Source of the DNA: Paratrimastix pyriformis | Taxonomy: Eukaryota > Preaxostyla > Paratrimastigidae | Length of the DNA: 64,000 bases | Direction: 5' to 3' | NCBI GenBank assembly: GCA_027972325.1 | Contig: JAPMOS010000003.1 | Coordinates: forward strand, 372,001-436,000 | Shown: positions 1,196 to 64,000 of the stretch, piece by piece | How positions within the stretch are numbered: position 1 is the stretch's first letter | Layout of the letters: the number at the start of each line of letters is the position of its first letter | Notes under the pieces: model-generated | What the model was told of the DNA's origin: nothing | Database searches by the model: none | The model's input: the letters and a program-made list of their open reading frames with translations, nothing else | Program-made: the position numbers and the translations under genes

Positions 1196-3629
1196 GGGGG
1201 GCGGACAGTTGCCACGCCGGCCGAGGGCCCGTCGTCCCTGTGGACGAGGACGAAGCTCTGGGCCTGGAAGCGGGCCGGCGGGGGCGGGGCCGGGCTGCCT
1301 TGGACCGAGCCGCCCATGGGGCCCGACCCGCGGGCCGCCTCCGCCCGGGCCCGCTTGGAGGACTGCACCGCCGGGCCTGCCACCAGGCACGTGCGGATGG
1401 TGTGTGAATATGTGGACGTGGGGGTTGCGGACTGTCGCCGGTGGCGGATTCGGCGAAGCGGGCGGGGTAATCCCAGGCCGGGGCGGGCATGGTGGTCCCG
1501 TCGGGCAGGGTCACCATCGGCACGGGCACCGTCAGGGCCTGGCCCTGGCCCGCAGTGTCACCCTCAGCGGTCGGAGTCACCTGCCGGGTGACCGTAGAGA
1601 CGGAGGGTGAGTCGTGGTGCGCGGGGCCCTCCCCGAGCCGCCCCCTTCGCCATGTGCGCCCAGCGGACCTGGTCGGGGGCCGCGGGCATGGTGGATGCGT
1701 AGAGGGAGTGGCAGGCCCCGCTGATGGTCACCGTGGCGGGGGTCGCATCGGCCGGGCCGTTGGCGGGGGCCGCGCAGAGGGACCCGACATGCTCCGGGTG
1801 GCCCGCGTAGTATGTGGCCGCCTGGGCCGCGTAGAACGGGTCAAACCTGGACGGCGCACCGGCAGCAAGATGGGTGAGCCTCACGCTTGCCCTGGTGTGC
1901 GCCGCTTGGCCACAGACATCGCTACTCCCCGCCCCCTCTCCCCACACCCACGGCCGACCGCCTTCCAGACGGACCTGCGGAGCCGCTGGACGGCGGGCGG
2001 AAGGGTCGCGAAGGGGACCTGCTCGCCCTCGACCATGTGGGCGTAGTACTTGGGCGGCCGGCGCACGGTCTGGGCGGCGTTGTTGACGAGCATGTCCAGC
2101 CGCGGGTAGAAGGCCAGCACGTGGGCCGAGAAGGCCTGCACCCCGGCCAGGTCGCGGAAGTCCATCCCGTAGACGTGGAGCCGGTCCTGGAAGGAGGCGA
2201 AGTCCGGGTCGCGGGCGAACCGGAGCGCGCAGTCGTTGGGGAAGCGGGTCGTGGCGATGACCAGGGCACCGCACTTGAGCAGACGTAGGGCGCATTGGTG
2301 GCCAATCTTCACACGGGATCCTGCGGGGCAGGTGGGCGGCGGCGGGACGGGGGATGAGGACGGGGGGGATGAGGACGGGTGGATCGCGGACCAGTGCAGA
2401 CGGCGATCTTCCCGCGCAGATCGGCGGTGGAGAGGCGCTTCTTCCAGTTCAGCTCGGCGCACTCGGGGCACAGGCGGTCGTAGAAGAAGTGCAGGTTGGT
2501 GAAGTAGCCCCTGCGCCCAGACCAGACCCGTCCGGGATGGAGGGAGGATGATGATGAGACGGGGTGCAGCCATTTTTTGCGGTTGGTGTGGAGCGGTCGG
2601 GCGACAGGAGACGAGGGGGGAGGTAAGGTGGGCAGGCGAACGGACCGGCAGATGTAGCAGAGCCGGTGCTTGTTAAGGGGATCGTCCTTGGTCACTCCGG
2701 CCGGGGCGGCGATCGGCTTGGGCAGCGCCGGGGGCGGGAGGACTTGTGGCGCCCCGGTGGTCGTCGCCAGGGCAGTGGGAGCCGCTGCCACAGCGGCAGA
2801 CGAACTGGACGGGACATCGACGGCGGCGGGAGATGGGGCCGGGGAGGAAGCCGCCTGGGGGGGCTGCACCTCGGACGGCTCCATCGACGCTCGGACGGGC
2901 GAGGCGGGCGCATCGGTCGACGTGGCAGTGGCGGTGACTGGGAGAAACCCTGCCTGGGTGAGAACCTCGGGGGCGAGGAGACCTCGCTGGGTCGCGGCTT
3001 CGACCCGCTGGGTGCAGAGATCCCGGGAGCGCAGCAGGAACTTGTCGTGGTCCTTGCGCTCCGTTGCCGCAAGTTTCCTCTTGTTCTTGTGGCCTTCTTT
3101 GCGTTGCTCCCACCGTTTGCGGTCGATGATGACGAAGAGCTGGCCCAGCTGGAGAACGATGTAACAAAAAAAGTGTTCGGGGAGATCGGCTCCGACCTTA
3201 CGGATCCTGCGATACTTCCTGGTCAGCATGATCTCGGGATGACGTTGAACAACCGTGAGAACCTTCAAGCAGGCATTGTATTCGGACTCTGTGAAATAGG
3301 TCTGTTTCTCAATCTCTTCAGGGGTGAGCTGCTTGGGTTTCACACCCGGTGGAAGATAGGGAAGAGGAGTGGTACCAGAGTGGTCATCCGGGAGCTGCTG
3401 GTCACCCTCTTCGTCCTCTTCGTCACCTTGGGGAAATACTTGATCCTCGGTCGGGTCCAGGCTGAATCGTCGCAACAAGCAAGAATTTTTGTCCAAAAAA
3501 GAGACAGAGGCAGAAGGGACAGCGAAGAGAACACGATGATCCAATGAGCCAAGATCAGGCGAAACGTTGGGACAGGCCTGCTTTTGTGATCACCCACGCC
3601 CAAAAGGTGCGAATGACCATGCCGGCCAT
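1..3629 (-). CDS. Short-chain dehydrogenase/reductase with N-terminal Cys-pair module (partial, continues beyond position 1)
   Basis: Predicted NAD(P)-dependent oxidoreductase of an SDR family known mainly from fungi and protists. Substrate unknown. Visible in order on the minus strand: an acidic N-terminus; a basic segment with DRKRWEQRKEGHKNKRK; a Cys-pair module (CYIC, then FFYDRLCPECAELN, about 2690-2440); the Rossmann start GKIAVCTG joined to SRVKIGHQ; LDMLVNNAAQT; and near the left edge NTWVKRMGEVSLVEV, HLVNTFAPYVLC and IVNVSAMEGKF, all hallmarks of this family. Supported introns are 2645-2511 (GTCCGT donor), 2391-2321 (GTCCGC) and 1974-1847 (GTCCGT). A 48-nt in-frame intron probably lies near 3210-3160. 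Between the NNAAQT region and the NTW motif there is a long Pro/Ala-rich insert (about 1850-570). The start is unsure: ATG at 3544 in an open frame, or ATG at 3629 spliced to the LDPTEDQVF segment. The catalytic YxxxK lies off the window. Confidence 0.8.
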
Positions 3630-3716
3630 CTCTTGTTCGCCAAACATCAAAGCAGCCAGTCACACCGCAAAAAAGAAAGAGTGCCAATCAAAAAGATTAT
3701 TTTGATCCCGATCTCT

Positions 3717-61988: not shown

Positions 61989-62025
<37 letters not shown>

Positions 62026-64000
62026 GGGGAGGGGATGCAGGCAGGAGTGAATGAGGAGGCAATATCGCTTCATCACCACCATCCAACCGTCGTCACAACA
62101 TGGGGCGGGCGGGCGGGCGGGGATGGGGCACGGACGTCCTGCAGGAGGCGCGACCCGACGGCGGTGAGGGCCTGGCGGGACCACTCCTCAAAGACGTCCA
62201 CCGTGCAGCAGTTGATCAGCGAGGGGAACTGCCGCAGCCGGTTGCGGAACCCGTCCCCGATGGGGCTCATGCAGAGCACCACGTGCACGTTGGCCCGGCA
62301 GCGCTCCGTGAAGAAGGCGTACACGGCAGCGGGGCTGGTCGCCTGGCCGGCCGAGATGGCGTCCGGGGTCACCGCTTGCAGAACCTGGGGTGATGGTGAT
62401 CAGGACGGTGATGGTGGTGGGTGGTGGGTGGTGATGATTGTGATTATGTTGGATGATTGTGATTATGTTGGATGATTGTGATTATGTTGGATGATTGTGA
62501 TTATGTTGGATGATTGTGATTATGTTGGATGATGCCAGAGAGAGCACACCCCCCCATTTGACCACACGAGGTGTGCATCCCGATGATGGGGAGGATGCGG
62601 AGTGCCGGGCGGCGGTGCGGACCTCCTCGTACTTGTCGGGCGGGAAGACGTTGGGCACGACGCCCGAGTTGAGGATGTTGTTCAAGTCCTCGAGCATCGT
62701 CAGCTCGCTGGCCCCGCCCAGCAGGGCGTCGCTGAACAGGAAGACGACGGGCTTGTTGTCGCAGCCGGCCCGCCGGAAGAGCTTCTGCAGGTCCTCGCGC
62801 CACTCGTTGACCCCGTAGCCCTTGGTGACCGTCACGGTGCGCAGCTCGTAGTCGGTCAGCGAGGTGGCCAGCCGGGTGAGCGACTGACGGCCCGACCCGC
62901 CCACCCCGACCACCAGGCAGTGGCCCCGGGGCAGCCGGATGACCCGGGCGATGCGGGCCACGTGGCGGATGGCCTGCTCGAAGAGCACCAGGGCCATGGG
63001 GGACGAGGGGAAGATCGAGTTGTAGCTGGCCAGGGCCTGGCTCAGCGACTCCTCGACCGTGGCCACCGACTTGGCCTCGACGTACGTGCCCTCGTGCTCA
63101 AAGTCGCCGAAGATCAGGAAGGGCCGGTCCCCTACCACACAGATGCCAAGTCCGTCAGACAACCAGAGCGCAAAATGGCACGGGGGGCACGGGGCAGGAG
63201 GGCAGGCGGCACGGACCGAGGACGTCCGCGTAGGACTTCTGGAAGTACTTGTCGCAGACCCCGCTGAGCATCTCGCGGAACCACTTGTTGTCCTGCTCGC
63301 CCATGAGCCGGTCCCCGAAGACCCGCTCCACCTCGTGCAGCCACAGGCGCAGCATGGCGTCCTCGGCCCCGATGGCCCCCGGGTCGGCCATGCTGATGCC
63401 CTGGAAGACCTTCGACAGGTCGCGCAGGTTGAAGGTGTAGTGCGACTTGGACGGGGTCGGGCGCAGCTCGCGGCAGATGGTCGTGTACACCTCGACCACA
63501 CCTGTCCCCACCCACCCACCCACCCACCCAGCAACCAACACCAAGGTGGGACAGACGCGTCAGCACAGAGTAAAGTAAGGGGAACCGGAACTTGACCCCC
63601 GCCCGCCACTTTTCGCCCAACCGTGCGGCCAGCCAGCAACCCGCAGCCGGCATCGGGCAGAGCAGAGGCGGACCGTCGACGAAGGGCTCACCCAGGCGGC
63701 GCAGCGAGTAGGGGAACTTGGCCAGGAGCCAGGTGGCGATGGCCGAAAAGATCGACTTGAGGGTGCCCTGGTCCAGGTCGGGCAGGGCGAACCGCACCAG
63801 GTGCCGGGCCAGCCGACCCGGGATGGTGTTGCGGCCGCCCCCTGCACGCCCCACCCGAACCCGAACCGGCGACACACAGGCACACAAACACACGGGGTGG
63901 TGATGGGTCTGCACGCACAAGAACGGGGAGCCTCGCAGGAGCGAGAGCTGCCTCCACCAGCAGCAGAGCAGGGGTGGGGGGTGGGGTGCGGGTGCGGGTG
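53320..64000 (-). CDS. Axonemal dynein heavy chain, C-terminal motor part (partial, continues beyond 64000)
   Basis: Motor ATPase of the ciliary axoneme, read from right to left. 63.7-63.2 kb: [20 protein letters not shown] and [20 protein letters not shown]. 63.1-62.6 kb: AAA4 with P-loop [17 protein letters not shown] and VFLFSDALL. 62.4-61.6 kb: [20 protein letters not shown] and stalk coil 1. 61.3-60.6 kb: microtubule-binding region ([20 protein letters not shown]). 60.4-60.0 kb: stalk coil 2. 59.9-58.1 kb: AAA5 ([37 protein letters not shown]). 57.8-56.3 kb: AAA6 ([37 protein letters not shown]). 56.1-54.6 kb: C-terminal domain ([20 protein letters not shown]). 54.4-53.3 kb: [35 protein letters not shown], stop after [11 protein letters not shown]. 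It resembles single-headed inner-arm chains (DNAH1/3/7/12 type). About 20 exons; donors are nearly all GTCCGY, with GC donors at 59356, 58145 and 56899. Confidence 0.95.
56150..56300 (+). repeat. GGATGATGGTGACT 14-mer minisatellite in a dynein intron
   Basis: About nine imperfect copies with ACTATGATGG variants, in the intron between the AAA6 exons. Confidence 0.85.
57219..57379 (+). repeat. GATGGCAGATGCT 13-mer minisatellite in a dynein intron
   Basis: About 12 near-identical copies; one has CAGACGCT. Read through, it gives false [15 protein letters not shown] protein repeats. Confidence 0.92.
57950..58075 (+). repeat. CATCAA and CATCGT microsatellites in a dynein intron
   Basis: Twelve or so ATCAAC units followed by ATCGTC units. 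Confidence 0.9.
61992..62023 (+). repeat. G homopolymer in a dynein intron
   Basis: About 32 G flanked by GGGA repeats; C-run on the coding strand. Confidence 0.9.
62436..62532 (+). repeat. GATTGTGATTATGTTGGAT 19-mer minisatellite in a dynein intron
   Basis: Five full copies, nearly identical, in the intron between the AAA4 exons. Confidence 0.92.

Follow-up and report, generated by a model that had tools for sequence, protein, structure and literature searches.

Few spliceosomal sequences are as strongly conserved as the 5' end of U1 small nuclear RNA (snRNA). In Parker et al. 2023 (PubMed Central (PMC) article PMC10581693), the U1 motif ACUUACC was invariant wherever a U1 was found, in 227 out of 230 yeasts and nine out of ten outgroups. 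A change of U1 position 5 to A was named there as a conceivable compensation and was not observed; the yeast switch to U at donor position +4 was explained by loss of METTL16 and SNRNP27K. The two nucleomorph U1s of PMC6461891 retained the motif. Both PMC10581693 and PMC13326754 stress that the U1 5' end did not move even when donors did. The window considered here, i.e. the whole stretch of 64,000 nucleotides (nt) at positions 372,001 to 436,000 of the forward strand of contig JAPMOS010000003.1 from Paratrimastix pyriformis, carries introns whose donors (5' splice sites) depart from the usual GTRAGT, and these were compared with the U1 genes of the same assembly. It is very probable that U1 and the donors evolved together. 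As judged from genomic sequence, it is highly likely that the U1 of this lineage changed from UU to AG at nt 5-6 (AUACAGACC), where the 5' splice site is read, and that its introns co-evolved to NG/GUCYG.

The window corresponds to C222:372001-436000 of the searchable assembly (56.06 Mb, 495 contigs), whose completeness is uncertain and which, as a single assembly, is the basis of all genome-wide counts. Donors were placed by homology in dynein genes. The profile was made from 33 of 120 listed homologues (top identity 46 % among the matches listed) and applied to 12 loci on 12 contigs, namely the window gene with its continuation and stretches of 11 further loci picked up via the AAA1 domain. 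In a dynein tree, the sister relationship obtained had a support of 0.27. Genomic DNA was aligned to this profile with introns permitted, a GT or GC donor being demanded in the first pass. In the second pass, donor positions within 42 nt were rescored for each of 72 introns with any dinucleotide weighted equally and an AG acceptor demanded. Introns of at least 60 nt with one GT or GC position of weight >=0.9 were kept as homology-fixed. This left 53 introns, of which 12 had their donor within the window. Three of the 19 dropped introns were shorter than 60 nt, and in 14 the position preferred by homology was neither GT nor GC. The homology-fixed introns of the window were:

63502..63673, minus strand: dynein intron, donor GTCCGC, P 0.99
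61338..61589, minus strand: dynein intron, donor GTCCGT, P 0.95
60405..60644, minus strand: dynein intron, donor GTCCCG (an exception at +5), P 0.99
59095..59356, minus strand: dynein GC-AG intron, donor GCCCGT, P 1.00
58743..58911, minus strand: dynein intron, donor placed at GCCGAT, P 1.00
57784..58145, minus strand: dynein GC-AG intron, donor GCCCGC, P 1.00
56669..56899, minus strand: dynein GC-AG intron, donor GCCTGT, P 1.00
56087..56369, minus strand: dynein intron, donor GTCCGC, P 1.00
55650..55816, minus strand: dynein intron, donor GTCCGT, P 1.00
54834..54942, minus strand: dynein intron, donor GTCCGT, P 0.92
54383..54590, minus strand: dynein intron, donor GTCCGC, P 1.00
53403..53552, minus strand: dynein intron, donor GTCCGC, P 1.00

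All 53 fixed donors displayed C at +3. Position +4 was C in 40, T in ten, G in two and A in one, +5 was G in 49, and +6 was C in 26, T in 17 and G in ten, while exon position -1 was G in 44. YYG occupied +3 to +5 in 47 donors and RAG, as in GTRAG, in none. The six others were GTCCC (twice), GTCAG, GTCGG, GTCCT and GCCGA. The last of these, still counted among the 53, is probably misplaced by 6 nt: GTCCGC at 58905, which lies 6 nt inward of GCCGAT and was chosen when GT was required, may be the true donor of that intron. Introns were of GT-AG (48) or GC-AG (five) type, the AG being imposed by the method and the 14 introns with another preferred donor position having been dropped; they have U2-type ends without the U2-type donor consensus GTRAG. 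The U12-type donor consensus is RTATCC, from which the invariant C at +3 sets them apart. The best GT or GC sites of the 19 dropped introns displayed +3 C in 13, YYG in ten and RAG in none, and a looser set of 62 introns displayed +3 C in 61, YYG in 53 and RAG in none.

The GC-AG introns keep the same code from +3 on (on the minus strand of the window at 59356 GCCCGT, 58145 GCCCGC and 56899 GCCTGT, and in L061 at 1250 GCCCGC). Dynein introns between 53000 and 64000 of the window contain many simple repeats of ATG or CATC type along with C runs, and in the fixed introns CATCA and TCATC are enriched over the final 60 nt. No clear branch point emerged from the tails of the fixed introns, CTCAC being found in 14 out of 53 against 6.6 expected.

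Donors of other genes agreed with these. For two genes of the window, the reading frame before and after the intron, inspected by eye, settled the donor:

4114..4162, minus strand: Sec22 intron of 49 nt, donor GTCTGC
3878..3969, minus strand: Sec22 intron of 92 nt, donor GTCCGT
18416..18460, plus strand: PABPN1-like intron of 45 nt, donor GTTTGC
18721..18769, plus strand: PABPN1-like intron of 49 nt, donor GTTTGC

Tubulin genes gave 16 introns placed in seven out of eight loci (no length filter was used here, and three were shorter than 60 nt); ten had a weight >=0.9, eight of them with YYG. The 11 distinct tubulin donors were GTCTG (seven) and GTCCG, GTCGG, GTCAG and GTTTG (one each). The U1-C gene, its frame read by eye, displayed GTTCCG, GTCTGT and GTTTGT; the sole genes seen with U at +3 were PABPN1, U1-C and, in a single donor, tubulin. 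Two contigs carry paired tubulin genes in opposite orientation (G000:C35:73812 and 149117; G000:C112:1058535 and 1079671; L045-L048), with equal alignment scores and donors and slightly different intron lengths. Ab initio gene models were rejected as sole source of a donor logo, being too noisy and calling many doubtful introns. In a gene model without donor score the two commonest donors were GTCCG and GTCTG, and a model started from GTRAGT ended up with the same pair.

A preliminary description of the window had put forward non-standard GTCCGY and GTCTGY donors. These are real and extend beyond the window, as seen in the dynein donors of 12 loci and, in agreement, in tubulin, U1-C and PABPN1. 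Its statement that G stands at +5 and that the usual donor is almost absent held in the fixed dynein set; that of pyrimidines at +3 and +4 held at +4 (50 out of 53) and needed sharpening at +3, where C specifically is found rather than any pyrimidine. Each of the 11 non-dynein minus-strand coordinates it listed carries exactly the hexamer given. Both PABPN1 GTTTGC donors and the Sec22 donors at 4162 and 3969 fit the reading frame, while for Sec22 at 4373, the F-box protein, B9D1 and flavin reductase the check consisted of hexamer presence. A gene model with the new donor profile recovered four of these 11 (2645, 2391, 1974 and, in the F-box gene, 6541) and a donor-neutral model two, with a codon table drawn mainly from one gene of high G+C content at third codon positions (GC3). 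The eight dynein coordinates were approximate, GTYYG being present within 14 nt of each.

The same description proposed an altered U1 (or reliance on U6 and protein recognition), to be compared with RCGGAC/RCAGAC-type complements, and a genome search for the U1 5' end supports an altered U1. The Rfam search (RF00003) yielded eight full-length loci on eight contigs, covering model positions 1-166 with E values of 3.7e-13 to 2.0e-10. All eight begin ATACAGACC and start with AUACAGACC, not AUACUUACC; they read ATACAGACCTTGCTTGG, the Rfam consensus being AUACUUACCUGG. Position 5-6 is thus AG in place of UU, and ACAGACC stands in all eight where ACUUACC is usual; CAGAC, the complement required by GTCTG, is found at U1 nt 4-8. 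The copies agree at nt 1-17 and have almost identical bodies, while their flanks diverged except for an upstream element; the start position was taken from the Rfam model and from the identity among copies. This element, CCCATAA, lies 54-67 nt upstream in all 12 U1, U2, U5 and U6 loci tested and occurs three times on both strands of the window. It is a candidate snRNA promoter element (L001-L012, L033-L036, L067, L068), and with it the eight U1 loci look like working, dispersed genes of snRNA type. None of the Rfam matches was a canonical U1 (eight at E <=0.001, with 41 of 992 first-look candidates scored). Position 11 of U1 is U against G in the consensus (L001-L008); the facing exon position -3 is A or G in 35 out of 53 donors and T in one. 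A U1 type carrying GG at nt 5-6 would suit +4 C better; it was sought with the pattern ATACNNACCTTGCTTGG and rejected, all eight exact matches having AG. With two mismatches the pattern gave 31 matches, which look like chance because the reversed control pattern gave 39. One viral contig, read at 480-860, contained a match to the 5' end of U1 that was likewise judged by eye to be chance.

Other components appeared unaltered or present. U6 displayed ACAGAGA in four out of four loci. Two U2 loci keep GTAGTA and the loop of two U5 loci keeps CGCCTTTTAC, the usual motifs. Genes were found for U1-C (its zinc finger matching solved U1-C proteins, best E 9.8e-18), for a METTL16-like protein (PF05971, E 2.3e-16, NPPF motif) and for SNRNP27 (PF08648, E 1.2e-6).

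The changed U1 matches the donors. In the usual register it paired at +3 with 53 out of 53 fixed donors against none for canonical U1, at +4 with ten against three and at +5 with 49 in both cases. The mean predicted duplex energy over the 53 donors was -7.07 kcal/mol with its own end, -3.54 with the canonical end and -3.23 with its own end carrying UU; compared donor by donor with the latter, the own end was stronger in 51, equal in two and weaker in none. U1 would bind the donor in its ordinary register, with G6:C+3 as the decisive new pair and A7, C8, C9 and C4 pairing as usual (C4 with G+5). A5 would face +4, where U would form a Watson-Crick pair and C would be tolerated as a mismatch. U1 would then pass the donor on to U6, in which G44 and C42 could pair with the same C+3 and G+5. 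U1 nt 1-7 (AUACAGA) are identical to the U6 stretch containing its box, so both could form the same G:C pair at +3; and with CAGA common to nt 4-7 of U1 and the box of U6, an unchanged U6 would be able to read the same letters.

Position +4 is less straightforward. Two adenosines, A5 in U1 and A43 in U6, stand opposite it (U6 register from PMC11732430, PMC13326754). U would be expected there, but dynein genes have C four times as often. Distinct tubulin donors displayed T and C at +4 in a ratio of 8:1, against 10:40 in dyneins, and the share of T drops as GC3 rises (rho -0.79, p 1.4e-4, over 17 genes that include some close paralogues). The dynein C:T ratio is unremarkable (p 0.34) when set beside the C share of 0.735 found at +9 to +30 of these introns, while relative to the intron interior (C share 0.567) C is in excess (p 8e-4). 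Most simply, +4 would be held to pyrimidine, with base composition settling C or U. A bolder version, which seems unlikely, is that U1 evolved towards the ACAGA box of U6, with AUACAGA in each and the donor code read twice by identical letters, and that the A facing +4 in U1, perhaps also in U6, is modified, e.g. to inosine. A modified A reading C and U alike, like a tRNA wobble base, would explain why +4 is nearly always pyrimidine, mostly C, and follows composition.

Several points weigh against a co-evolved U1. GG at nt 5-6 would pair better than AG (-11.33 kcal/mol, best of 16), and A5 stands opposite C in 40 out of 53 donors. The genome has METTL16-like and SNRNP27 genes, whose presence in yeasts accompanies +4 A (PMC10581693), a pattern not seen here. 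The U1 loci score 50.8-60.2 bits, under the curated Rfam cut-off of 69.5, and are therefore called divergent, U1-type snRNA; 41 of the 992 first-look candidates were scored. All 53 fixed donors belong to one gene family, tubulin, U1-C, Sec22 and PABPN1 being smaller checks, and U1 loci and donors are known here from genomic DNA.

The same C at +4, which lacks a standard pair with U1 nt 5-6, could be taken to mean that donors are chosen by U6 and proteins, AG being drift in a U1 freed from tight pairing; G44, A43 and C42 of U6 can indeed also pair with C+3, U+4 and G+5 (register from PMC11732430, PMC13326754). This appears quite improbable, since drift would not be expected to hit AG, second only to GG for these donors among the 16 combinations at nt 5-6, nor to keep the match in all eight copies, which agree over nt 1-17. 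Another alternative is that the working U1 is not encoded by the eight loci: a canonical one would be missing from the assembly or unscored, or the loci would stem from another organism in a mixed assembly. This draws on the uncertain completeness and the limited number of candidates scored. It is very improbable: a canonical U1 ought to outscore the variant in the Rfam search, and the eight copies, on eight contigs, have their upstream element in common with U2, U5 and U6. Moreover, contig C441 holds a U1 copy, and its L037 gives GTCCG as commonest donor in the neutral model; donors and snRNAs other than U1 co-occur on contigs C446, C223 and C112. Finally, the window is of 65 % G+C and the choice of C or T at +4 tracks GC3, from which GTCYG could be a by-product of composition or codon usage with recognition unchanged. 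The chance of this is practically negligible. Among decoy GTs lying no more than 60 nt from a kept donor, YYG occurred in 12 out of 247, against 43 out of 48 real GT donors, and +3 C in 96 out of 247 against 48 out of 48 (RAG in four and none, respectively); +3 also does not track GC3, C being found in ten out of 11 distinct tubulin donors as well.

If a co-evolved U1 is the correct explanation, the joint shift of U1 and introns is a natural experiment in altering a recognition code that most genes rely upon, and the sharing of donor choice between U1 and U6 becomes testable. It also offers a case outside the link of METTL16, SNRNP27K and +4 A known from yeasts. In practical terms, gene prediction with GTRAG as the assumed donor will fail on the genome of P. 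pyriformis. No report of a lineage in which both U1 and donors moved this way was found in searches of an open-licence PMC library, subscription papers and preprints being outside its coverage.

Compared with canonical U1 (RF00003), the loci share the full-length match over 1-166, the stem order, a 5' end of AUAC..ACCU, the GATCA loop and the donor register; they differ by AG rather than UU at nt 5-6, U rather than G at nt 11, GTCYG rather than GTRAGT donors and a score under the Rfam cut-off. The +4 U yeasts (PMC10581693) resemble this lineage in a donor preference away from +4 A and in retention of the U6 ACAGA box, whereas here U1 is altered and both a METTL16-like and an SNRNP27 gene occur. 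Fritillaria borealis (PMC13326754) has likewise abandoned the usual donor genome-wide; its U1 5' end is, however, described as strictly preserved, and U2AF duplication together with N6-methyladenosine (m6A) changes were proposed. The diplonemid S. specki has a second U1 gene with a non-canonical 5' end (PMC12621601), a C-rich variant that stands beside a canonical U1, both fitting ordinary donors about equally. In P. pyriformis, unlike S. specki as there described, only the changed form of U1 was found, and the donors match the changed form.

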